From: Desulfobulbus oligotrophicus
GTDB taxonomy: Bacteria > Desulfobacterota > Desulfobulbia > Desulfobulbales > Desulfobulbaceae
NCBI RefSeq assembly: GCF_016446285.1
Contig: NZ_CP054140.1
Coordinates: 1,593,501-1,657,500 of the forward strand
Length of the DNA stretch: 64,000 bases
Direction of reading: 5' to 3'
Of this stretch, positions 11,724 through 26,896 are shown piece by piece; position 1 is the first letter of the stretch, and each line of letters starts with the position of its first letter. Below the pieces are notes generated by a model. It was not told where the DNA came from and did not search any database. It saw only the letters and a list, made by a program, of their open reading frames with translations. The translations under genes and the position numbers were made by a program.

Positions 11724-12014
11724 TACAATCCAGACTCAAATCTTTCCAATCCGGATTATTTTGCTCAATCAAAGCAATTTTCCAGGCTCTTTTTCTGTTT
11801 TGATTTTTTTCTCCAATTCGATAGCAGCATGGATATCTTCTCCAGATTCGTACCAAACCAGCATATGCACAGTATATTTTGCGCTGAAGCTTTCAGTGTG
11901 TGTTTTGTTTTTATGTTCATATATACGGTGCTCCAGGTTACTGGTCACTCCGGTGTAAAGCGTTCCATTTCGTTTGCTGGCGAGAATCGGGGTGGAGGTG
12001 TGTTTCTCTTCCAT
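11650..12014 (-). pseudogene. GIY-YIG endonuclease-like gene, frameshifted
   Basis: From ATG 12014 the frame gives the GIY-YIG core, LASKRNGTLYTGVTSNLE, then RIYEHKN and ELEKKIKTEK, and stops early at 11769. The expected continuation KRAWKIALIEQNNPDWKDL lies in another frame (stop 11650). The break is at an A-rich run (GAGAAAAAAATC, near 11810), where slippage is likely. Small solitary GIY-YIG proteins of this kind often sit inside repeats; here both flanks are copies of the same repeat, and the C-terminus reads into it. Programmed frameshifting is possible but less likely than decay. Confidence 0.7.
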
Positions 12015-12162
12015 GTGGCGTTCCTGCATAAAACTGGATTCCGCGACTACGCGCGGAATGACTAGTGTTCTGTTTGGTTCATATCGTCTTTTAATTTTCA
12101 AGGAACTTCTGAAGCCATATGTCAGAACTGCGAGGTCAGAAGAAGGAAGGCTGCACCTGAAA

Positions 12163-12343
12163 CCCTTGAAATTGCATGACTGAACTAACCGCACGGGACA
12201 CTAGCTCAGACATCACCCTGTCACCCTGCAACGGTCATTCTGCGCGAAGGGCGCGCAGCGGCCGTAGTCGCAGAATCCATCATCCTTGATGTGCCAAACG
12301 TGGACTCCACAACTGCACCGCATTCTGCGCGAAATGACATCAT
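12163..12343. repeat. Interspersed palindromic repeat, right block
   Basis: A second copy of the 11433-11640 sequence, in the same orientation: CTTGAAATTGCATGACTG, ACTCAGACATCACCCTG-like leader, hairpin CATTCTGCGCGAAGG/CGTAGTCGCAGAATC and the tail GATGTGCCAAACGTGGACTC. Together with the left block it forms direct repeats flanking the GIY-YIG pseudogene. Confidence 0.75.
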
Positions 12344-15684: not shown

Positions 15685-17322
15685 TCACTGCTGAGGGCCC
15701 GGCAGTGGCGGCAAGCCGAGTTCTTTAAGAAAGGCATTATGCTTTGTCGCTGCCGCCAGAATGTCTTTTTCAATGGCTGTCAGTTCCTGGTGTACGCTCG
15801 TCAGGTCGATTTCCGGTTCCGGTTCGGCGGTGCTGACATAGCGGGAGATGTTCAGGTTCCAGTCATTGGCCTTGACCTCATCCATCCCGACGCGCCGGGC
15901 ATACCGCTTAATGGGCTCTTCCGGGCGCTCTTTATAGGTGTCGATAATCTTTGCAATGTGCTCTTTGTTGAGATGGTTCTGGCGCTTACCCTTTTCAAAC
16001 TCCTTTTCCGCATTGATGAACAGCACGTCATCTGATTTTTTACACTTCTTGAGTACCAGAATACATACCGGGATACCTGTGGAATAAAACAGGTTGGCCG
16101 GCAGACCGATCACTGTGTCGATATTACCGTCTTCCAGCAACTTCCGGCGGATGCGTGCTTCTGCTCCGCCACGGAATAACACACCATGGGGCAGGATAAT
16201 GGCCATTACGCCGTCATCCTTGAGGTAGTGGAATCCGTGCAGCAGAAAGGCAAAATCTGCTGCAGATTTTGGTGCAATGCCATGGTTTTTAAAGCGCATG
16301 TCTTCGCTGGCCTCGTCCCGCGGTTGCCAGCGATAGCTGAAGGGCGGATTGGCCACCACGGCATCAAACTTTGGTTTTTTTGCCGGGTTGGTCTCGCGCA
16401 GCCAGTCCCACTCGTTTGTAAGCGTGTTGCCATGATAGATCTCAAACTCGGTATCCTTCACCCCGTGCAGCAGCATGTTCATTCGTGCCAGGTTATAGGT
16501 GGTAACGTTGTACTCCTGGCCATAGATTTTGCCAATGGTGCCCCCGGCCGCGAGCATACGCCGCCGCACATTCAAGAGCAGCGAACCCGAGCCGCAGGCG
16601 AAGTCTAAAACGTTATTGAGTTTATGCCGTGGACCGGTCTCCGGCGATTGACTGTCCAGAATAACAATGCCGGAAAGAATGTCAGATATCCGCTGCGGTG
16701 TGTAGAATTCGCCGGCTTTTTTGCCTGAGCCGGCAGCAAACTGATCCAGTAAGTACTCATAAGCGTTGCCGAGCATGTCTGTATCAATCGAGAACTCAGC
16801 CAGCTCTTCGGCAATCCGCTTGATAATGGTGCAGAGTTTGTCGTTGCGATCGGTATAGGTTTTGCCAAGCTTATCCGAGGCCAGGTTGATCTCGGAAAAC
16901 AATCCGGCAAAAGTGCTTCCAAAGGACTCGTTCTCAATGTACTTGAATCCTGCCTGCAGGGTGTTCAGCAGTTCGTTGTTCTGTGTGTTGGCAAGGTAGG
17001 CAATGCTGGTCCACAGGTATTCGGGCTTGATGACATAGTGAGCCTTGCGGCGCATCTGTTTTTCAAACATCTCAATGTCATCCGGGTTTTCCTCATACCA
17101 CACTGACAGGGATGTGCGTCCGCTATTTTCAACACTGTTCGGGTCTGGATAGTCCCTGCCAAGTTCCTTTTTTGACGCAGTCTCGTAGTTGTCCGAGAGA
17201 TAGCGTAAAAATAAAAACGCGAGCATATAGTCGCGAAAGTCATCGGCATTCATGGAGCCACGCAGATCGTCTGCGATCTTCCACAGAGTTTTGCCAAGTT
17301 CCTGCTGGTCGTTTTGAGTCAT
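15685..17322 (-). CDS. hsdM: Type I restriction-modification methyltransferase HsdM (system 1)
   Basis: 545 residues. N-terminal helical domain (LGKTLWKIADDLRGSMNADDFRDYMLAFLFLRYLSDN), SAM-binding motif VLDFACGSGSLLL and adenine-N6 catalytic motif NPPFSYRW, then the C-terminal segment for HsdS contact. Methylates adenines at the site chosen by HsdS. It is the last gene of its operon, 23 bases after the anticodon nuclease gene. Having hsdR first and hsdM last is uncommon, and suggests control by gene order. Confidence 0.93.
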   Translation of the reverse strand: MTQNDQQELGKTLWKIADDLRGSMNADDFRDYMLAFLFLRYLSDNYETASKKELGRDYPDPNSVENSGRTSLSVWYEENPDDIEMFEKQMRRKAHYVIKPEYLWTSIAYLANTQNNELLNTLQAGFKYIENESFGSTFAGLFSEINLASDKLGKTYTDRNDKLCTIIKRIAEELAEFSIDTDMLGNAYEYLLDQFAAGSGKKAGEFYTPQRISDILSGIVILDSQSPETGPRHKLNNVLDFACGSGSLLLNVRRRMLAAGGTIGKIYGQEYNVTTYNLARMNMLLHGVKDTEFEIYHGNTLTNEWDWLRETNPAKKPKFDAVVANPPFSYRWQPRDEASEDMRFKNHGIAPKSAADFAFLLHGFHYLKDDGVMAIILPHGVLFRGGAEARIRRKLLEDGNIDTVIGLPANLFYSTGIPVCILVLKKCKKSDDVLFINAEKEFEKGKRQNHLNKEHIAKIIDTYKERPEEPIKRYARRVGMDEVKANDWNLNISRYVSTAEPEPEIDLTSVHQELTAIEKDILAAATKHNAFLKELGLPPLPGPQQ

Positions 17323-17345: not shown

Positions 17346-18458
17346 CTATCTATTCGGGAATAACTCCCGGTTGAAAGGATAATGGTTGATGAAGTCGTGA
17401 AGAATCCTCCGAAAGTGCTCTTTGTTTTCTGCGAGCATTTCCCGTGGCTCATAGAGCGAATAATTGCCGTGATTAAGAATGTTGATCAGTCGTGTGTGCA
17501 ACACATCTTCCACGTCATCGTCACCCTGCCGGATACAAGCGGAAAAGTTGTCGTAGCCGTGAAAGCTGGCGGTTTTTTCCAGGATGGCTCGGAGCATATT
17601 GAAGTGATGTGTATAAAGCTCGCCACTTTGTTCAGCCTCGTACAGTCCGGCCAGTGCTGCCACATGATGAAAAAACGGCGTTTCGCCGGTATCACGGAGA
17701 GTGTACTCGTTTGACACCCGATCGCACGCTAGAAAAAACCGATCGCGCCGATTCTTCTTTCGTTTAATTTCGTTGTACAGTACGTTGAAGAATAGCGCGT
17801 GGTGAGTGGAAATTACTGTTTTAAGTTTGCTTTCTGGATTCTTCAACAATCTGGCCAGGTGTGTTGCAACGGCAACCGCATTTTGATCATCCAGCGACGA
17901 TATCGGGTCATCAATATAGATATACCGAACCCAGTTATAGGGGCCATTGCCATCGTCGTCCAGTGTGAGTTGGACAATGGCAAGGAAAAAGCACCAGATG
18001 AAGATATTCTCTTCGCCGCGTGAGATCTTAATACCATCTTCGATACGATGTCCGTCACCATCCGACACTTCGCGCGAAAAGCTCACTTCCCACCTGTCGG
18101 TGTTGATACGAAAGTCAAAATCTACGTAGCGGCTGAGCAGGGGACGGATGCGGGTATCCATCTCCAATTCTTCGAGCCCGGCAAAAAATCGCGATTGGGA
18201 ATTAAGACGCAAAACTCGTTCGCTGTCGTTATCCAGGTCGTTATCCCATGTGAACAGATCTTCGGTAAAAGCGTTGAAATAGAGCGTGTCACGTTTGTCC
18301 TCATCAGCAACATCTTTACCAAGATTCTTGAACGCGGTGGACAGTCGCGTTTTGCCAATGCCGTTGTAAGCGTAGAGCAGGATGAATTTCTTGTTCATCA
18401 GCTCATCACGCAGGTGTTGGGCCAGCGCAGGCAGGTCCGAGAAAGGCTGAATGCTCAT
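17346..18458 (-). CDS. prrC: PrrC-family anticodon nuclease
   Basis: 370 residues, near the ~396 of E. coli PrrC. ATPase part: Walker A AYNGIGKT (residues 30-37), the PrrC block YFNAFTEDLFTWDNDLD (60-76), signature SRGEE (146-150), Walker B YIDDPISSLDD (181-191), ISTHH (216-220). Nuclease part: R290 and E294 in MLRAILEKTASFHGY and H330 in RLINILNHG match the Arg-Glu-His triad known in PrrC. PrrC is kept silent by a type I RM complex and cuts tRNA in the anticodon when phage inhibits restriction. The gene overlaps the AlbA_2 gene by 4 bases and precedes hsdM, inside a type I operon exactly as that model expects. RloC is excluded by the lack of the long zinc-hook coiled coil. Confidence 0.87.
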   Translation of the reverse strand: MSIQPFSDLPALAQHLRDELMNKKFILLYAYNGIGKTRLSTAFKNLGKDVADEDKRDTLYFNAFTEDLFTWDNDLDNDSERVLRLNSQSRFFAGLEELEMDTRIRPLLSRYVDFDFRINTDRWEVSFSREVSDGDGHRIEDGIKISRGEENIFIWCFFLAIVQLTLDDDGNGPYNWVRYIYIDDPISSLDDQNAVAVATHLARLLKNPESKLKTVISTHHALFFNVLYNEIKRKKNRRDRFFLACDRVSNEYTLRDTGETPFFHHVAALAGLYEAEQSGELYTHHFNMLRAILEKTASFHGYDNFSACIRQGDDDVEDVLHTRLINILNHGNYSLYEPREMLAENKEHFRRILHDFINHYPFNRELFPNR

Positions 18459-20002
18459 ATCTGTCTTCTTCGCAGCCAGGCCATACCCTTGCTCGTCAAT
18501 CGATATTTCTGCAAAGGACTGCGGGGCTTGTCAGGGATGGTCATTTCCATCAAGCCCTGATCAATAGCTGTTTGCTGATAATGTTCACGAAAATGTTTCT
18601 CATCCTTCAGCCCCAGAGCGGCCATCAGTTCAGCGCGGCTCATTTCACCCTGAAGTGTCTCAAGCAGTCGACCTACTTCAGGGGTAGCTTCGGGGGTAGC
18701 TTCGGGGGTAGCTTCGGGGGTAGCTTCGGAATTTTGCTCCTCAACAAAGCCTGGATGTATGGGCAAACGGATCAAGAATGAACTGCGCTCATCATCACTT
18801 TCAAACACGGGCCCAGGTGAGCCGTTAGCTTGCATTACCCGAAGAATTTTTGGAATACCCGTAGATCGGCCTTCAGTAAGATTCAATTCTTTTAAAAATT
18901 CACCGATACGGCGATTGCGATAACGACGACTGACGGCACGGCCTGCCTGCAGGTCTTCCATGCGGATGGAACGATCTGGGCCGGGAAAGCTCAGCACCAT
19001 CAGTTCTTCCGGGGTGATGCGCACCTCAACCGGTTCGCGGATCTCATAAGAACGGTGATATACTGCATTCACCACCGCCTCTTCAACGGCCGCCAGCGGA
19101 AAGTTCCAGAAACGCTCTGCCTGGGGGCGATCAGGATGTTTGATAACCGTTTCCTTCAGGTAATTGCGAGCAATGTAATCCACTGCATCGCGGGTAATAT
19201 GTCCCAGCGGCCCGATAAATTCCTTTTCTTCAAAGCGGTCGCCGCCAGCACCCTCGGGAAAATACACCACGTCAATCTGGCTGGCCGGGAAAAATCGATC
19301 TGGGCGGTCATTGAAAAACAACAGTCCAACATTCTTCGGAAATGCCATCTCCACCGGACCGCCAACAATATTCATGCGCCGTCCCAACTCTTCAACACTC
19401 AATGTTGCCGATCCATCTGCCAACTCACTGCCGATTTCCTGTAGGAACTCACGTATCAGGTGCGTTGACAGATCGGCAAGACCGGCACCCTGATGGTAAC
19501 GGTCGTCAAAAGGCACCGTGGCGGCCAGCGATAACAACTCACGTTCATCGGCACCTTTTGCCCGCACGGTACTGGTGTGCCTGCGCAGGTAGAAAGCCCA
19601 CTCGGCATTCTTATCACCCAACCGGACACGCGCCTTATATGGGCGGGTCTCTCCACCCGGCACCCATAACACCAGAATCAACCTGCCCCGCACCTCATAG
19701 GTGGCGGTCAGTGGATGATAAGGCGGCTGGATTGCTGCATTCCCCAGGTTCAGCAGTTCCTTCTGGATACGGTCAATCTGCTCCGACAGTAAGCCCGCAG
19801 GCGGCAAGACCGGCTGACCGTTTTGTTCTTCAACACCAACCACCACATAGCCACCGCCCAGATTGTGAAAGTCATTGGCAAAGGCACAAATACTGTGCAA
19901 CACCGCTTCAGGATTCCAGCCCGTCTTGTATTCCACCCGCTCGCTTTCAATGGTACGCAGATGAAGCAGGGAATTAAGGTTGATGGGGAGTTTGGTGGTC
20001 AT
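18455..20002 (-). CDS. AlbA_2 (Schlafen-like) ATP-binding transcriptional regulator-like protein A
   Basis: 515 residues. N-terminal AlbA_2 domain (ESERVEYKTGWN, CAFANDFHNLGGGYVVVGVEE), a HATPase-like middle (AAVEEAVVNAVYHRSYE, STGIPKILRVM), a linker with four EATP units, then a winged-helix-like C-terminus (GLMEMTIPDKPRSPLQKYRL). Proteins of this architecture are common next to type I RM genes; role unsettled, perhaps regulation or nucleic-acid binding. It overlaps hsdS by 4 bases and prrC by 4. Its C-terminus resembles that of the AlbA_2 protein at 21358, suggesting a duplicated module. Confidence 0.8.
   Translation of the reverse strand: MTTKLPINLNSLLHLRTIESERVEYKTGWNPEAVLHSICAFANDFHNLGGGYVVVGVEEQNGQPVLPPAGLLSEQIDRIQKELLNLGNAAIQPPYHPLTATYEVRGRLILVLWVPGGETRPYKARVRLGDKNAEWAFYLRRHTSTVRAKGADERELLSLAATVPFDDRYHQGAGLADLSTHLIREFLQEIGSELADGSATLSVEELGRRMNIVGGPVEMAFPKNVGLLFFNDRPDRFFPASQIDVVYFPEGAGGDRFEEKEFIGPLGHITRDAVDYIARNYLKETVIKHPDRPQAERFWNFPLAAVEEAVVNAVYHRSYEIREPVEVRITPEELMVLSFPGPDRSIRMEDLQAGRAVSRRYRNRRIGEFLKELNLTEGRSTGIPKILRVMQANGSPGPVFESDDERSSFLIRLPIHPGFVEEQNSEATPEATPEATPEATPEVGRLLETLQGEMSRAELMAALGLKDEKHFREHYQQTAIDQGLMEMTIPDKPRSPLQKYRLTSKGMAWLRRRQI
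18681..18728 (-). repeat. Four 12-bp tandem repeats in AlbA_2 protein A
   Basis: Four identical copies of GGGGTAGCTTCG (plus strand), preceded by a diverged copy at about 18669. Read on the minus strand they encode the repeated EATP linker. Because the unit is 12 bases, copy-number change keeps the frame and only alters linker length. Confidence 0.9.
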
Positions 20003-21279
20003 GACAGTCCCACCTCTTCCAGCACTGGAAACAGTTGCTGCATCAGGCCTTTTTTGTGGTCTTTCAGGGCGTCGATGCGTTTGCTTTGGGCAATGATTTG
20101 GTCGTCGAGTGAGGAGAGGCAGTCAGCGATTTTTCGTTGTTCGGTGTTGGTCGGTGGAAGTGGAATCACGAATGAGCGTATTTGCGCAAAATTTAAGCCT
20201 TGGCGGTTTCCGCCTGCCTGGAAACTGTCTATCTGCCTCTGCCCACGTTCGGAAATCAGGAACTGATTAAGCAAAATGGGGTTCAATTCTTCTATCTTTG
20301 TTCGAATAATACAAACGTGTTGATTTACATTCCCACCAGCAATTTTGTCATCAGCTACGGCGCTACGACCGATGGATGCGCCGGTAATATTCAATAGGAC
20401 ATCGAGCATGTGAATCTCAGTGGCATCAAATGAAGAGTGGGTACTTTCATCTATAAATACCAGATCATCGAGAAAAAGTTCGCCACAGCCAACATTTTGG
20501 CTACGTATGAACGGTCGTCCAGTTGTCTTATAGTTTTTGTCCCCACCGCGTGGCGTGATGCCACTTCCAACTTTGGTTGTTATGTTATGAAGGACATGCT
20601 CTTCCCATTTTCCCCTATCCTGAAACTCAGGAAAGCGGAGGCGGGGGCGGGTTTTGCCTTCACGGGGGAAGAGCTGTTGCATCAGCCCTTTTTTGTGATC
20701 CTGCAAAGCTGCCAGCTTCCGCCCTTCTGCCGCAATCAGATCATCCAGCGAACCCAGACAGTCAGCGATTTTTTGTTGTTCGTAAAGGCCAGGGAAGAAA
20801 ACATGTATTTGAGAAAAAGCCTCAAACTTTAGGTTGAGAGTATCTTTGACCAAACCTTGAGAATAGCGTCTGAACTGTCTAATTAGTTGTTTAGTCTTGA
20901 AGTAATAGGAGAAAAAACGACTATCGACTTGGTCTTTGGGGGTACAAACGGTATAGGCTGGACTTACAAGCCCCTCGTTTGTCGCCAGTGCACTCCGACC
21001 TTCCCACATCCGCATGGTGTTATATGCAATATCTCCAGCGGAAACACGTAAATACTTTGATTTATTCGCACTAGAATTGTCTTTCCGACCGGAGTTCTGC
21101 TGCAAAATCAGCCCCTCTTTTTCCGTGAGCGAGAGTAGTGGAATGTCTTCATCTCCAGTTTCCTTTCTCTCCACGAAAAGATTCCCGAGTGCATCATTAT
21201 TCCACTCTCCCGCATCCCTAAACTCCGGAAACCGCAGCCTTGGCACCAGCCCTTTTTTTTGTGTCTTCTGTTTATTCAT
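19999..21279 (-). CDS. hsdS: Type I restriction-modification specificity protein HsdS (system 1)
   Basis: 426 residues with two target-recognition domains, each followed by the same helical spacer: YEQQKIADCLGSLDDLI...LAALQDHKKGLMQQLFP near residues 165-210 and TEQRKIADCLSSLDDQI...IDALKDHKKGLMQQLFP near 375-418. Each domain reads half of a bipartite DNA site. RLRFPEF opens both halves. Its ATG overlaps the stop of a 27-codon ORF upstream. Confidence 0.92.
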   Translation of the reverse strand: MNKQKTQKKGLVPRLRFPEFRDAGEWNNDALGNLFVERKETGDEDIPLLSLTEKEGLILQQNSGRKDNSSANKSKYLRVSAGDIAYNTMRMWEGRSALATNEGLVSPAYTVCTPKDQVDSRFFSYYFKTKQLIRQFRRYSQGLVKDTLNLKFEAFSQIHVFFPGLYEQQKIADCLGSLDDLIAAEGRKLAALQDHKKGLMQQLFPREGKTRPRLRFPEFQDRGKWEEHVLHNITTKVGSGITPRGGDKNYKTTGRPFIRSQNVGCGELFLDDLVFIDESTHSSFDATEIHMLDVLLNITGASIGRSAVADDKIAGGNVNQHVCIIRTKIEELNPILLNQFLISERGQRQIDSFQAGGNRQGLNFAQIRSFVIPLPPTNTEQRKIADCLSSLDDQIIAQSKRIDALKDHKKGLMQQLFPVLEEVGLS

Positions 21280-21355
21280 CTTCCTGCAGCTTGTCGGGAT
21301 TATTAAGGGGTCTTTTTTCAGCCAAGGTCATGCTGTGTATCAGTTCATTTTGCAT
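21272..21355 (-). CDS. Possible 27-residue leader peptide before hsdS
   Basis: ATG 21355 lies just 2 bases after the stop of the AlbA_2 gene and the frame ends in GATGAATAA, where the hsdS start ATGA overlaps it. The peptide begins MQNELIHSMTLAEKRP. No domain is recognisable. It may only couple translation of hsdS to the gene before it. Confidence 0.35.
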   Translation of the reverse strand: MQNELIHSMTLAEKRPLNNPDKLQEDE

Positions 21356-21357
21356 GG

Positions 21358-22863
21358 TTATTCTTCTCTGATTTTCTGCACCAGTTGCTTGCCCGCTTCT
21401 GTCAGGCGGTATTGCTGCAATCGGCTACTGGGTTTGTCCGGCCGAGTCATTTCAATCAAGCCCATATCCAGCAGACGGCGAATTTGTTTGTGCAGTTCGC
21501 CCGAAACGCTCTGGTGACCAAGTTGTCGAGCCAATGCCTGCTTGCCTGCTTCGGCCTGCGCGATCAGTAATACCAGTCTGGCAGCCAAACGTGACTCTAG
21601 CTGTGACTCTAGCTGTGACTCTAGCCGTGACTCTAGCCGCTCGGCCTCGATTGGTGACATGATGGTTGTTGCGGTCAGATCTCTACTTGTTTGCCATTGG
21701 GGTGCGGGACGACGGATGAGTGCTGTAAATTGATTGCCACTGACCTCACTTTTCAGCTCTATCTGCGGCCACTCTTCCAGCGCACGAGGGATGCCGCTGC
21801 CAACTCCCCTGTAGGGCAAAATACGAAACGCATGTTCGCTCAGAGTGGGGTTGCGTCGGTTGGTTTTGCCGTGGCGGATATCGTCAAGACTCAAGCTGTC
21901 AGGCAGGTGGCCTGGGCTGATGATCTCGATACGGTCGGTAAAGATCAGGATGCGAATAGAGGCACTGGTAAAATAGTCACGATGTACCAGTGCGTTGACC
22001 AGCAGTTCCTGCAAGGTAATTTCTGGTATTTCCAGAATGCCGGGCGAATTAAAATCCTGCTCGCCTTGCACGCGGTGCAGGTTGCGTTTGATAAAGGCCA
22101 GTGCCTCGGTGTATTGGTGCTTTAGTGTGCCGCCGATATCCAGACTGTCCAGATAACGGGTATCTGCGATGCTCGTGCCGGGGAAGGTGACGGCTTTGAT
22201 AGAGCATACCGGGCGCCAACGCTGAGGGTTACGACCAAACAACAACAAACCTGATAGATTCAACTCACGACCATCGCCCAACCCCAGATTTTGCAAAATA
22301 GCGTCCAGAGGCAAGTTGATTATGCTGTTACGGTCGCCATAGTGTTGGTTTAAGTATTGTCGGAAGACGGTTTCATCCAGATCCGCACTGGTGGTGTCGG
22401 CCACGGGCACAATATCAGCGTATACCAGTCCGGCACGCTGAAACATTCTTTGTAACTCTTCACGGGCAATCAGTTGACGCTTGTCTGCCCCCTGTTTGAT
22501 CCAGATACGGCCCTGATGATCGAGATAGGGCTTGGAAACACCATCGGGAATGGTAACGATGATGACCATCCCTTGCTCGGTCAGTACATTTTCCGTTAGA
22601 AAACTGATAGGTGGGCGCATGTGCTGGCTGGCGGTATTGCTCAGCATTTGGTTGGTACGGCGCACCTCGGCAGTATCCAAGCCAGCGATACTGCCATCGT
22701 CATTAACGCCAATCAGCAAGGTACCACCTCCGCTGTTGGAAAAAGCCACCAACTCAGCGGCCAGTGCGTCCGGATGGTTGATGCTGCGCTTAAACTGCTG
22801 ACGACTGTATTCTCCTAAGGCGATTTGCTCCAGCAATTGCGCGATGGCGGATTTATTGCTCAT
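21358..22863 (-). CDS. AlbA_2 (Schlafen-like) ATP-binding protein B
   Basis: About 501 residues. AlbA_2 domain at the N-terminus (ELVAFSNSGGGTLLIGVNDDG, SKPYLDHQGRIWIKQGADKR), a GHKL/HATPase-like middle (ITLQELLVNALVHRDYF, GVGSGIPRAL), a charged linker of four 4-residue units (ESRL/ESQL), then a helical DNA-binding-like C-terminus with GLIEMTRPDKPSSRLQQYRL. ATG 22863 sits inside the hsdR 3' end (11-base overlap). Relationship to protein A is seen in domain order and in the last ~60 residues. Function in the RM locus not known. Confidence 0.8.
   Translation of the reverse strand: MSNKSAIAQLLEQIALGEYSRQQFKRSINHPDALAAELVAFSNSGGGTLLIGVNDDGSIAGLDTAEVRRTNQMLSNTASQHMRPPISFLTENVLTEQGMVIIVTIPDGVSKPYLDHQGRIWIKQGADKRQLIAREELQRMFQRAGLVYADIVPVADTTSADLDETVFRQYLNQHYGDRNSIINLPLDAILQNLGLGDGRELNLSGLLLFGRNPQRWRPVCSIKAVTFPGTSIADTRYLDSLDIGGTLKHQYTEALAFIKRNLHRVQGEQDFNSPGILEIPEITLQELLVNALVHRDYFTSASIRILIFTDRIEIISPGHLPDSLSLDDIRHGKTNRRNPTLSEHAFRILPYRGVGSGIPRALEEWPQIELKSEVSGNQFTALIRRPAPQWQTSRDLTATTIMSPIEAERLESRLESQLESQLESRLAARLVLLIAQAEAGKQALARQLGHQSVSGELHKQIRRLLDMGLIEMTRPDKPSSRLQQYRLTEAGKQLVQKIREE
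21591..21638 (-). repeat. Four 12-bp tandem repeats in AlbA_2 protein B
   Basis: Four copies of GTGACTCTAGCT/C (plus strand, 3' base varies). On the minus strand they encode the repeated ESRL/ESQL linker. Same unit length, copy number and position as in protein A, but a different sequence. Confidence 0.9.
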
Positions 22864-25800
22864 AGGCACTTAGTCCCGAGATGGTGCGTCCTGCCGCCTG
22901 TTTTTTGAGCAGCGGCACCAGGTCTTCCATGAGGGCCAGTTCGCGTATGCTACGTTCGCGCCAGCCAAGATCAAGCGGGGCCAGCAGATCGGAAAGCTGC
23001 TCACCGTCAAAGATCATGCGCTGCAGGATAGCATCCACAAAACCGGTCAAGGCTTGCGGCAACAGACCGTGTTTATCTGCAAGATCAGAGAGTTCCCTGG
23101 CCCGCTTCTCGGCCTTAAACTGTTGGTAGCCGTCTCTGATCTGCTTCTCGTCAAGGGGCTTGCCGGTTTCCAGTGAGCGGACGTACTCGCTGATTGTCTG
23201 GAGCTCATCAAGAAACTTGGCATCAGACTCGATCAGAGCAATGAGCTGTTCGCGGGTCATCTTGGCTGTTTTCTGGTCCTGCTTTGTGAAGCGGGCAATC
23301 AGATTCATGATGTAGTCATAGTCAATGGTTGCCGAGGCAAAGAGGACAAACTCAAAATCAAGCTGCTCAACCAGCGGGTTGCCTGAGCCGCCCGGTTTTT
23401 CGCGCTGCTCGCGCAGACGCTGGGCAGTCTCCAGATAGGCGCCGCGAAAGCCGCGAAGATCGTCTTTTGGAAGTATCTGTTCGATCTCTTGTTTTTGCTC
23501 GCTGGTGAGGTCGGTATACTGGTCGAGCTGGGTCTGCAGGCGTTGAATCTCCTTGAAGTGACTGATGAATCGGGCACGGAGGTCGTCGCCCTTGAGATTG
23601 GCAATGGCCTCGGGCCTGGGCTCAAGGCTCTGGGATTTTAAAAATGTATCCAGGCCGGCCTTGGCCTGCTTGAACTGTTCAATGACCTTGGGCGCCTTGT
23701 CCACCAGCCAGATCTCCCGACCCTTGTCAGCCTGGGTACCGGAGAACAGGGCAATGGCCTCGTCAACGCTATCCTGCTGACCCCGAAAATCGAGGATATG
23801 GCCATAGGGTTTGGAAGCGTTGAGGATGCGGTTGGTGCGGCTGAAAGCCTGAATCAGGCCGTGGTGTTTAAGGTTTTTGTCCACGTACAGGGTGTTGAGG
23901 TACTTGGAGTCAAACCCGGTTAAAAGCATATCCACAACAATGGTGATATCGATTTTTTCCGCGCCTTTTTGCGGTAGATCAGCGTTAGGGTACTGCTGGT
24001 CTTTGATGCGCTGCTGTACATCCTTGTAGTAGTCGTCAAATGTATGGATGGAGTGGTTGGTGCCGTAGGCGGTGTTGTAAGCGGCGATGATCTTTTCAAG
24101 TGCGGCTTTCTTCTTTTCCGGCTCGGTGATGTTGTCTGCTTTTTCCTGGGGCAGATCCTCCTGCAACTGGCGGACATCGGCATTGCCTTCTGCAGGTGGT
24201 GAGAAGACCGCAGCAATCTTGAGCGGTTTGAAGTCAGGGTTTTCGGTCTGGAGCCTGGCCTGCATCTCTTTAAACAGCTCGTAATAGGCAATGGCGTCAT
24301 TGATGCTCGCTGTGGCAAACAGTGCATTGAAGCGCCGGTCTGCAGTGGCGGCATCGTGTTTGGCAAGAATGGCCTCGATGATGGCCTGCTTGGTCAGCGT
24401 ATCACCCGGGGCAGGTGGATTCTGACTGTCGGGTTGGTAATAGTCCACGTGAAAGCGCAGGACATTGCGGTCTTCAATGGCATGGGTAATGGTGTAGGCG
24501 TGGAGTTTCTGCTGGAAGACATCTTCGGTGGTTCTGAGCGTTTGAATATTGCCGTCGATCTGTCTGACCGTGGCGTTTTTATCAAAGATGGGCGTGCCGG
24601 TAAAGCCAAAGAGCTGCGCCTTGGGAAAGAAGTCTTTTATGGTCTGATGCGTATCACCAAACTGGGAGCGGTGACATTCGTCAAAGATGATGACCATGCG
24701 CTTGTCGCGCAGCGGTTCAAGCTGGTCGGAATACTTTTCCCGGCCTCGCTGCTGACGTCTTTTGTTGCGCTGGCTTTGCTCGTCCAGGGCAAGGCCGAGC
24801 TTCTGGATGGTGGTAACAATAACCTTGTCGGCATAGTCGTCGGAAAGCAGCCGTCGCACCAGCGTGGCAGTGTTGGTGTTCTCTTCAACGCAACCTTCCT
24901 GAAAGCGATTGAACTCCTCTCGGGTCTGACGGTCCAGGTCTTTGCGGTCAACCACAAACAGGCATTTGTGAATGTTGTGATTGTCCTTAAGCAGCGTGGA
25001 GGCCTTGAACGAGGTGAGTGTTTTGCCGCTGCCGGTGGTGTGCCAGATATAGCCGTTGCCGCTGTTTTCCTCAATGCACCTGACAATCCGATCCACGGCA
25101 TAGATCTGGTAGGGTCGCATCATCATCAGCTTCTGCTCGCCGGCCACCAGCACGATGTAGCGACTGATCATATCGCCGAGCGTGCATTTAGCCAGGAAGG
25201 CCTCGGCAAAGTCGTCGATATGTGTAATTTTGATGTTATCCTCGGTGGCGAATTGATAGATGGGGAGGAAACGTTCCTCGGCATTGAAACTGAAGTGTTG
25301 GGTGTTGTTGTTGGTGAAGTACCAGGTGTCTGTCCGGTTACTGACGATAAAAAGTTGCACAAAGCATAGCAGCGTGCGCGTATAGCCGTTACCAGGGTCG
25401 TTCTTGTAGTGGGCAATCTGCTGTATGGCCCGCCGGGGACTGATGCCGAGATTCTTGAGTTCGATCTGAACAGCAGGAACACCGTTGATCAGAAGGATCA
25501 CATCGTAACGATGGTGGCTGTAGTCGGTGTTGATGCGCAGTTGATGGACAACCTCAAAGGTGTTTTTGCACCAGTCTTTAATGTTGACTAGGGTGTAATT
25601 AAGCGGCGTGCCGTCATCGCGGGTAAAGCTGTTGATCTCGCGAAGGAGGCGTGAGGCGGTAAAGACATCTGAAGTGACGATCCCGCCGAGCAATCGGTCA
25701 AACTCGCCATCCGTCAGGCTGACCCGGTTGAGGGCCTCAAATTTTTCACGAAAATTTTCTTCAAGGGCAGCCCGGTCGCGAATATCAGAGCGGATGGTGT

Positions 25801-25909
25801 ACTTTAAATTGCTCAGCAGTTCGATGAACGCGGTTTCAAGATCCACTTCACGAACTGTTGGCGGCGTGTAGGTTACCGAACTGTCATATCTGGTATGAGA
25901 AGAGTGCAT
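22853..25909 (-). CDS. hsdR: Type I restriction endonuclease subunit HsdR (system 1)
   Basis: 1018 residues. N-terminal nuclease domain (VILLINGVPAVQIELKNLG contains the ExK-type catalytic part), then helicase domains: Walker A TGSGKTLTS, DEAD-like box DECHRSQFG, motif III FTGTPIFD, motif VI QAFSRTNRI. HsdR translocates DNA and cuts far from the recognition site in the R2M2S complex. First gene of its operon; the promoter should lie in 25910-26209. Confidence 0.93.
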   Translation of the reverse strand: MHSSHTRYDSSVTYTPPTVREVDLETAFIELLSNLKYTIRSDIRDRAALEENFREKFEALNRVSLTDGEFDRLLGGIVTSDVFTASRLLREINSFTRDDGTPLNYTLVNIKDWCKNTFEVVHQLRINTDYSHHRYDVILLINGVPAVQIELKNLGISPRRAIQQIAHYKNDPGNGYTRTLLCFVQLFIVSNRTDTWYFTNNNTQHFSFNAEERFLPIYQFATEDNIKITHIDDFAEAFLAKCTLGDMISRYIVLVAGEQKLMMMRPYQIYAVDRIVRCIEENSGNGYIWHTTGSGKTLTSFKASTLLKDNHNIHKCLFVVDRKDLDRQTREEFNRFQEGCVEENTNTATLVRRLLSDDYADKVIVTTIQKLGLALDEQSQRNKRRQQRGREKYSDQLEPLRDKRMVIIFDECHRSQFGDTHQTIKDFFPKAQLFGFTGTPIFDKNATVRQIDGNIQTLRTTEDVFQQKLHAYTITHAIEDRNVLRFHVDYYQPDSQNPPAPGDTLTKQAIIEAILAKHDAATADRRFNALFATASINDAIAYYELFKEMQARLQTENPDFKPLKIAAVFSPPAEGNADVRQLQEDLPQEKADNITEPEKKKAALEKIIAAYNTAYGTNHSIHTFDDYYKDVQQRIKDQQYPNADLPQKGAEKIDITIVVDMLLTGFDSKYLNTLYVDKNLKHHGLIQAFSRTNRILNASKPYGHILDFRGQQDSVDEAIALFSGTQADKGREIWLVDKAPKVIEQFKQAKAGLDTFLKSQSLEPRPEAIANLKGDDLRARFISHFKEIQRLQTQLDQYTDLTSEQKQEIEQILPKDDLRGFRGAYLETAQRLREQREKPGGSGNPLVEQLDFEFVLFASATIDYDYIMNLIARFTKQDQKTAKMTREQLIALIESDAKFLDELQTISEYVRSLETGKPLDEKQIRDGYQQFKAEKRARELSDLADKHGLLPQALTGFVDAILQRMIFDGEQLSDLLAPLDLGWRERSIRELALMEDLVPLLKKQAAGRTISGLSAYEQ

Positions 25910-26209: not shown

Positions 26210-26896
26210 CTAACCAGTAACCAATGCTATGAACCGAGTCACCCAATTAGTAACCAATGTTATGAGCTGAGTCGCCCAACCCGAAAGCAATGCTATGGGT
26301 TGAACTGCTTGCTCCGAAACCACAAGCCACCAGACACCACCTATATTTGCCAGAACTGAGAGCCAAAAGACAAACTGAAAAGACCCTTTGACGGTTTTAT
26401 GATGCAATATCTGCTGGGCAATGATGCCCCCCGGCCAACCTCCCAGAAAATCAAGCAGATGTAAGGTGCTTTCGGGAGTACGCCACGCACCCCGCTTTGC
26501 TGCACGTTTATCGCCCGTGTACGCTAAAAATGAGATCAGGCTGCATAAGAAATATGAGCCGGCAATGATCAGGGGCAGCTTATGCAGAGCAGAGGCCAAG
26601 GCAACCAGCACCAATGCAAAAAAACCGAGGGTAATTCGTAGCCAAAAGAAGACTTGCGAACCTGAAATTCGCTGGGCTGCGGCCAAGCTGACCCTCGTGG
26701 CTTGCAGGCGCCCCTGAGAATCTTTGACCATGGAGTAAGTAACCGGATCTTCAATTATTGGTCTGCGAGATCGTGATTTGACGTTGCTGATGTGCACAAA
26801 CACTCTGTTGCCGCCGCCCTTGGGCTCGATGAACCCAAAACCCCGATCATCGTTCCATTCTGTTATTTTTCCCGCGTATTTCAAGAATCCCTCCAT
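26210..26896 (-). CDS. Cold-shock domain fused to DUF1294 membrane protein
   Basis: 228 residues. Residues 1-70 form a cold-shock domain (GKITEWNDDRGFGFIEP, RVFVHISN: RNP-type motifs). After a linker come about four membrane helices of DUF1294, with the family block GDKRAAKRGAWRTPESTLHLLDFLGGWPG. The tail holds a threefold ~10-residue repeat (QPIALLSGWA, TQLITLVTNWV, TRFIALVTG) forming one extra hydrophobic segment that most relatives lack. Likely binds nucleic acid at the membrane; function unknown. Confidence 0.82.
   Translation of the reverse strand: MEGFLKYAGKITEWNDDRGFGFIEPKGGGNRVFVHISNVKSRSRRPIIEDPVTYSMVKDSQGRLQATRVSLAAAQRISGSQVFFWLRITLGFFALVLVALASALHKLPLIIAGSYFLCSLISFLAYTGDKRAAKRGAWRTPESTLHLLDFLGGWPGGIIAQQILHHKTVKGSFQFVFWLSVLANIGGVWWLVVSEQAVQPIALLSGWATQLITLVTNWVTRFIALVTG

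Follow-up and report, generated by a model that had tools for sequence, protein, structure and literature searches.

In a 64,000-bp stretch of the Desulfobulbus oligotrophicus genome (NZ_CP054140.1, positions 1,593,501 to 1,657,500; the whole stretch is called the window, and coordinates are counted from its first base), two accessory genes of a type I restriction-modification (RM) locus, here termed P1 and P2, carry arrays of 12-bp in-frame repeats immediately before the region encoding a C-terminal winged helix. Comparison with related genes makes it very probable that, for the family as a whole, the repeat is constrained as nucleic acid. The DNA letters of the unit are kept across reading frames and across unlike peptides, as if the gene contained an array of DNA sites and not just an adjustable protein linker.

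Two Schlafen-type genes with arrays at the same domain boundary

The whole window was searched with Tandem Repeats Finder at a minimum score of 40. The features concerned, all on the minus strand, are as follows.

18455 to 20002, minus strand: P1, with AlbA_2 (about 19559-19948), HATPase_c_4 (about 18788-19033) and a Fic-like_C winged helix
18676 to 18729, minus strand: P1 array (Tandem Repeats Finder), period 12, 4.5 copies, 97% matches, unit GCTACCCCCGAA, peptide ATPE
18494 to 18679, minus strand: Fic-like_C winged helix of P1 (residues 442-503)
21358 to 22869, minus strand: P2, with AlbA_2 (about 22474-22812), HATPase_c_4 (about 21757-21963) and a Fic-like_C winged helix
21591 to 21637, minus strand: P2 array (Tandem Repeats Finder), period 12, 3.9 copies, 97% matches, unit GAGTCACRGCTA, peptide ESRL/ESQL
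21400 to 21579, minus strand: Fic-like_C winged helix of P2 (residues 431-490), behind the P2 array

P1 has 515 amino acids (aa) and P2 503 aa when read from a GTG codon; position 22863, where the original prediction placed the start of P2, is an ATG two codons further on. Both proteins matched PF04326 (AlbA_2), PF13749 (HATPase_c_4) and PF21247 (Fic-like_C), each above the Pfam cut-offs, and by these domain criteria they are bacterial Schlafen-type accessory proteins (SLFN_AlbA_2, HATPase_c_4 and winged helix); neither gave a match in NCBIfam. They are the only AlbA_2 matches in their own 3.1-Mb genome. Read in frame, the arrays encode ATPEATPEATPEATPE in P1 and RLESRLESQLESQLESR in P2, where two units read LESQ and not LESR, and both stop at or shortly before the Fic-like_C match. 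Tandem Repeats Finder and Pfam thus confirmed the original prediction of the same 12-bp in-frame device at the same domain boundary of both AlbA_2 genes, and the C-terminal ends are indeed alike, with 26 of 78 aligned residues of the C-terminal domains identical; the claim of exactly four repeats holds as about four, not as an exact figure. One further 12-bp row, of 2.1 copies, was listed in the window.

Distribution of the arrays

Relatives were collected from the own genus and class (best-scoring loci only), from the genera of two survey loci and from plasmids, together with a wider survey of 80 named loci (the best 80 of 301) from many phyla including archaea. This gave 182 distinct HATPase_c_4 open reading frames (ORFs), some of them cut at contig ends, in a sample that leans towards close relatives of the queries. 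A tandem repeat lay C-terminal of HATPase_c_4 in 85 of the 182, with a period of 12 in 82 ORFs, 21 in two and 24 in one, and elsewhere in the ORF in a single case. Where the C-terminal tail measured 90 aa or more, 82 of 115 ORFs had a repeat; where it was shorter, 3 of 67 did. Other ORFs of the same loci had 12-bp repeats in only 10 of 1251 cases, comprising six Fic genes with Fic-like_C, three ORFs antisense to Fic-like_C genes and one other; Fic genes with Fic-like_C, including the Fic gene of the own genome, carry short arrays at the same place. A simple repeat for ON/OFF phase variation was considered and rejected, since the periods of all 85 arrays keep the reading frame. Among the literature matches listed, which mostly do not cover subscription papers and preprints, no description of 12-bp repeats in these proteins was found.

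Some related ORFs depart from this layout. L150 (105-1983, reverse strand) and L152 (192-1983), of 626 and 597 aa, have two successive modules of array and Fic-like_C, with degenerate arrays. Short orphan Fic-like_C ORFs lacking any N-terminal domain were also numerous (e.g. L230, L168, L158 and L247) and may represent genes that have been broken or cassettes in storage; the arrays of L230 and L168 are apparently read in the third frame, as if after a frameshift.

Constraint on the DNA letters of the unit

Where possible, each array or each motif type was given a single vote in counting. Arrays with the same peptide motif in different genes (94 pairs) shared 306 of 376 codons (81%), whereas for the winged helices of these pairs the figure was 1755 of 4065 (43%) and for their HATPase_c_4 domains 2500 of 5583, and the unit was better conserved than the winged helix in 15 of 16 motif groups. 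Specifically, the ESRL pairs shared 155 of 180 codons in the unit versus 784 of 1947 in the winged helix, and the ESRL unit GAGTCACGGCTA was identical in genes of 37% (L071) and 64% (L095) guanine plus cytosine (GC).

Two reading frames, each with peptides of its own, preserve the core word NAGTNACC. AGTCAC was common to units of unlike peptides in 24 of 82 arrays, 13 in one frame and 11 in the other, and newly found LPTQ arrays (e.g. CAG TTA CCG ACC) spell the same DNA word via a further peptide. The P2 unit has the full AGTNAC core, within which GTNAC is palindromic. In a frame test, a matrix built from V-type units was used to score S-type units against synonymous shuffles that followed each gene's own codon usage. 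The S-type units scored 3.33, compared with -0.99 (standard deviation 0.88) for the shuffles, and none of 2000 shuffles was as good; with S-type arrays partly chosen by codon, the values were 3.87 and -1.20, again with 0 of 2000. Of 31 S-type arrays, 29 fitted best in the other frame.

The same preference was evident at single codons. Within arrays, Gln, Glu and Lys codons had A as third base before Val in 134 of 136 cases and G before Ser in 114 of 114, while elsewhere in the same genes the corresponding counts were 166 of 366 and 127 of 322; counted per array, the A:G proportions were 31:1 before Val and 0:30 before Ser. The rule was repeated in a held-out set, drawn from genomes of the families of two first-set loci with already seen tails excluded (58 new ORFs with 31 arrays), at 81 of 83 codons before Val and 24 of 24 before Ser, against 42 of 97 and 40 of 103 outside the arrays of the array-bearing ORFs. 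In the Fic arrays (13 arrays; 17 Fic ORFs found), these codons ended in A in 36 of 36 cases, while outside the arrays of those ORFs 7 of 47 did. Dual coding, in which a second frame would be kept open, was rejected because stop codons arise, namely TAA in the S frame of V-type units with GTA and TAG in the third frame of ESRL units.

Two other accounts bear on these letters directly. The first is that the array is a functionless product of slippage kept by mutation bias. Arrays do homogenize, with 2100 of 2169 same-residue codon pairs identical within arrays, and in three genomes of Candidatus Accumulibacter GAG stands in all units of two arrays and GAA in all units of the third, a synonymous variant throughout that is the mark of whole-unit turnover. 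However, concerted evolution under neutrality should not retard sequence divergence between species, whereas the units remain similar even when the synonymous sites beside them have diverged widely; arrays are, besides, found at hardly any other boundary. This account appears highly improbable. The second is that the array acts in the mRNA, as a site for an RNA-binding protein or as a translation-pausing stretch between domains, which would agree with a constraint on the coding strand of transcribed sequence and with the use of CTA for Leu in 47 of 68 array codons but in 219 of 4323 (5%) outside the arrays of these genes. Against it, RNA folding was not unusual in the six arrays tested (z -1.2 to 2.1), the same core occurs in Fic genes without AlbA_2, and the same unit in genes of 37% and 64% GC makes codon rarity unlikely as a rule. 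An action in the mRNA is thus considered quite unlikely.

Association of the array with the winged helix

The arrays were further compared with the domains on either side of them (81 arrays, 43 tetrapeptides). In partial Mantel tests with 500 permutations each, the peptide motif went with the winged helix (0.53, reached by 0 permutations) but not with the HATPase region (0.016, reached by 165). Motifs alike in at least three of four residues were found in 53 of 54 pairs with a helix identity of at least 60% and in 26 of 1804 pairs below 35%. The DNA unit tracked the winged helix also at fixed peptide similarity (0.44, 0 of 1000). Of the arrays that precede Fic-like_C-type helices, as identified with a model built from the arrays' own tails, 36 of 69 contained AGTNAC and 46 of 69 AGTNA; of those preceding other helix-turn-helix (HTH) domains, 0 of 12 and 2 of 12 did.

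In 159 genomes of the own class, three AGTNAC cores spaced by 12 bp occurred at 15 distinct places, of which 13 abut a same-strand Fic-like_C domain, one is a hexanucleotide repeat and one is unexplained; the P2 array is the sole match in its own genome. What Schlafen-type and Fic genes, bacterial as well as archaeal, have in common is the Fic-like_C helix, the candidate reader of the array.

The unexplained place (G089 contig C91:13582-13647, L294) is an AGTTAC array with 12-bp spacing and no listed Fic-like_C domain adjoining. Separately, the arrays of L014 and L201, which precede another type of HTH, share GAAAACG though coding GKTS and EKTP; other HTH classes may have DNA words of their own.

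Variation in copy number and linker length

Copy numbers, compared throughout between species-level genomes, ranged from 2.5 to 12.4 across the 82 arrays. Six pairs had identical tetrapeptides and at least 80% nucleotide identity, and four of them differed by at least one unit: the three pairs formed by the genomes of Candidatus Accumulibacter (genus of L074), with 8.67, 4.58 and 7.58 copies, and a pair from Legionella (genus of L071), with 3.92 and 2.92. The other two did not (GLVD, 3.0 and 2.67; EGVN, 4.0 and 4.08). Two of the homologues in these close pairs have frame breaks in the assembly. A single scan of viral contigs with query A2 gave no relatives, and one DNA query of E. coli with the L062 gene gave no match.

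These differences bear on the original prediction of a length-tunable switch, in which slippage would add or remove four residues between sensor/effector and winged helix and thereby alter activity. Consistent with it, the changes are of whole units in frame, and the P2 repeat is a low-confidence predicted helix, in which four residues would be just above one turn. The predicted structures are of medium quality (mean predicted local distance difference test, pLDDT, 64 for P1 and 71 for P2), with the winged helix at about 90, and the array region of P1 is predicted to be disordered. The best PDB matches of P1 in Foldseek were 3lmm, the Fic protein 4rgl, which has TDHVGDQVTDQV at the place corresponding to the array, and the AlbA_2 domain 2kyy. 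Judging from two models only, a structural role common to all linkers is doubted, and the encoded peptides are diverse. A pure length switch predicts constraint on length and peptide and not on DNA letters; it leaves unexplained the excess of codon conservation in the unit, the frame-independent core and the dependence of Gln, Glu and Lys codons on the next residue, and it is therefore not supported as the main function. Variation of copy number between close relatives thus stands from the original prediction, while linker length as the purpose of the array is unlikely.

The parallel drawn there with hsdS of EcoR124 was likewise upheld in part. In EcoR124I and EcoR124II, as the accessible part of the source describes, copies of a 12-bp in-frame repeat encoding TAEL set the length of a linker in HsdS (PMC3874165). 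Unit length and the variation of linker length with copy number are alike, but those repeats lie in helices of HsdS and act via protein length, whereas here they lie in accessory proteins and show frame-independent conservation of DNA. The hsdS gene of the window itself had no tandem repeat listed at the minimum score used, and the hallmark of the EcoR124-type length switch, a 12-bp repeat within the conserved centre of HsdS, is thus not seen in this locus. The parallel is thus one of analogy.

Exchange of array and winged helix as a cassette

Among pairs with HATPase regions at least 75% identical, the winged helix was less than 45% identical in 357 of 432. For example, L032 and L033-L035 have HATPase regions 97-100% identical, and their nucleotide identity of 90.5-90.8% persists until 17-37 bp before the array, after which a different array and a different HTH follow (the C-terminal helix is Fic-like_C in L032 and HTH_24 in L035). 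In 10 of 13 compared pairs, all of these with different arrays, similarity ended 17-103 bp before the array, and in five pairs it returned for 46-67 bp near the gene end. Array and winged helix are exchanged together on a conserved AlbA_2-HATPase platform.

Near-identical platforms with different arrays and helices, and the positions at which similarity ends and returns, could also be read as the array being a recombination site that drives the exchange of winged-helix cassettes between genes. However, the arrays that replace each other are often unrelated in DNA, the upstream breakpoints precede the array, and crossing over within arrays of two reading frames would give frameshifts, which makes a role of the array as the driver of exchange very unlikely.

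A putative site array read by the encoded winged helix

Direct repeats that are constrained, for the family, as DNA beyond the peptide lie inside genes of proteins with a DNA-binding-type domain, as in-gene iterons do. The reading preferred here, to which we give about an even chance, is that the array is a set of sites, inside the gene, for the gene's own winged helix, the binding being putative and self-regulation the likely purpose. The winged helix encoded behind the array would bind it head to tail, with one protomer or dimer per 12 bp, and the protein would thereby repress or sense its own gene. Changes in copy number would tune this self-control and, as a by-product, lengthen or shorten a linker with few constraints on its peptide. 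The broader picture falls somewhat short of an even chance: a self-addressed cassette, consisting of a DNA-reading domain and its own slippage-tunable sites, that is swapped as a unit among defence effectors and Fic proteins of bacteria and archaea, with the number of sites as a dial of self-control, the DNA sites coded in two frames and the peptide secondary.

Several observations weigh against an in-gene site array. The P1 unit fits the AGTNAC core poorly (AAGCTACC) and lacks the strict core, which is also absent from 33 of 69 arrays before Fic-like_C-type helices (AGTNA from 23 of 69), and many Fic-like_C genes have a degenerate array or none (no array was called in 27 of the 58 held-out ORFs). 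Almost half of the same-motif pairs (45 of 94) represent one motif, ESRL, and in the EQVT group, made up of close relatives, the unit had no advantage in conservation over the helix (10 of 12 versus 178 of 210). The reciprocal frame test gave a weaker result (4 of 2000 shuffles), arrays with neither Ser nor Val plus Thr fitted the matrix weakly (174 of 2000 shuffles as good), and the shared ancestry of arrays means that counts are not independent. Common descent of the cassette could likewise account for the coupling of motif and helix. In the class genomes a reversed control pattern gave 22 matches versus 29 for the AGTNAC pattern, without a list of its places, so that the number of matches is no argument and only their location is evidence. 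Finally, no further copies of the unit stood out in the flanks (at most 4 kb on each side and in many cases about 1.5 kb), where own and foreign units scored 9.93 and 9.91 of 12, the own unit being better in 42 of 82 cases. An own unit that scores no better than foreign ones means that no promoter operator is seen in the flanks; if the winged helix binds, its nearby sites lie in its own gene.

By analogy, both halves of the proposed mechanism occur in nature, as phage lambda O and TubR/tubC show. In phage lambda, the iterons within gene O are 19 bp long and belong to the replication origin, and the DNA-binding domain is encoded upstream of the repeats. They are direct repeats bound by the encoded protein, with interactions between neighbouring dimers, according to the accessible part of PMC3985674. 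The likeness lies in direct repeats inside the coding sequence of a protein with a DNA-binding or DNA-binding-type domain; the arrays described here differ in having 12-bp units in variable number before a winged helix, whose binding to them is putative. A replication origin function of the array on the chromosome is not expected. TubR, as the available text of PMC5016525 describes it, is a winged-helix protein that sits on several direct repeats as a filament and also represses its own operon; tubC, however, lies upstream of the operon and outside genes, and its likeness to the arrays is one of analogy.

An in-gene site array would turn an apparent curiosity of a protein linker into a nucleic-acid element with a testable signature, namely a codon choice that depends on the next residue and preserves AGTNAC. 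If this is true, potentially toxic defence proteins would bring their own regulator sites through horizontal exchange, with no matching host promoter needed, and operator strength could evolve through gain or loss of 12 bp. It would also account for the tetrapeptide repeats before the last domain in many proteins annotated solely as ATP-binding, RNA-binding-domain or Fic family proteins.

Genomic context and related systems

P1 and P2 lie in an operon-like row on the minus strand, in the order hsdR, P2, hsdS, P1, PrrC-like gene, hsdM, with P2 between hsdR and hsdS and P1 between hsdS and the PrrC-like gene. The row contains all of hsdR, hsdS, hsdM and a PrrC-like gene and is hence a type I RM locus with PrrC. 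The other genes are as follows.

22853 to 25909, minus strand: hsdR (EcoR124 C-terminal type; profile matches)
19999 to 21279, minus strand: hsdS (profile matches)
17346 to 18458, minus strand: PrrC-like ATPase (PADLOC PrrC, E-value 1.5e-137)
15685 to 17322, minus strand: hsdM (profile matches)

Homologues of P2 on IncC E. coli and IncFIA Klebsiella plasmids (49% identity over 381 aligned residues and 48% over 406, respectively) are shorter, without array and without winged helix, and in both plasmid rows the PrrC-like gene directly follows hsdS, hence there is no P1. Among the 80 survey loci, an HsdM-like match lay nearby at 4 and a PglX-like match at 15. A general association of these genes with hsd was therefore rejected, and the hsd context of the window is one of several.

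Effectors that combine a Schlafen RNase, a minimal histidine kinase and a winged HTH are frequent companions of bacteriophage exclusion (BREX) and related systems, according to the available part of PMC12839542, and it is from such relatives, not from P1 and P2 themselves, that an RNase or anti-phage function may be proposed by analogy. P1 and P2 have the same domain architecture but lie in a type I RM/PrrC operon, and the available part of that paper does not mention repeats. An AlbA_2 gene with an ESRL array (L227 3989-5452) likewise lies in a BREX system, between brxC and pglX on an Azotobacter plasmid. In Borg elements, fast-changing in-frame tandem repeats in coding sequences give disordered stretches (accessible part of PMC9879509). 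These resemble the present arrays in being in frame and fast-changing, whereas a fixed domain boundary and a shared DNA core are not described for Borgs in that part of the source.

Elsewhere in the window, an ORF at 26210-26896 (minus strand) has 2.6 copies of a 33-bp repeat at its C-terminal end (26212-26297). By eye, we take this ORF to be cold-shock/DUF1294-like, and the ORF at 11769-12194 (minus strand) is presumably GIY-YIG nuclease domain-like and possibly a fragment.

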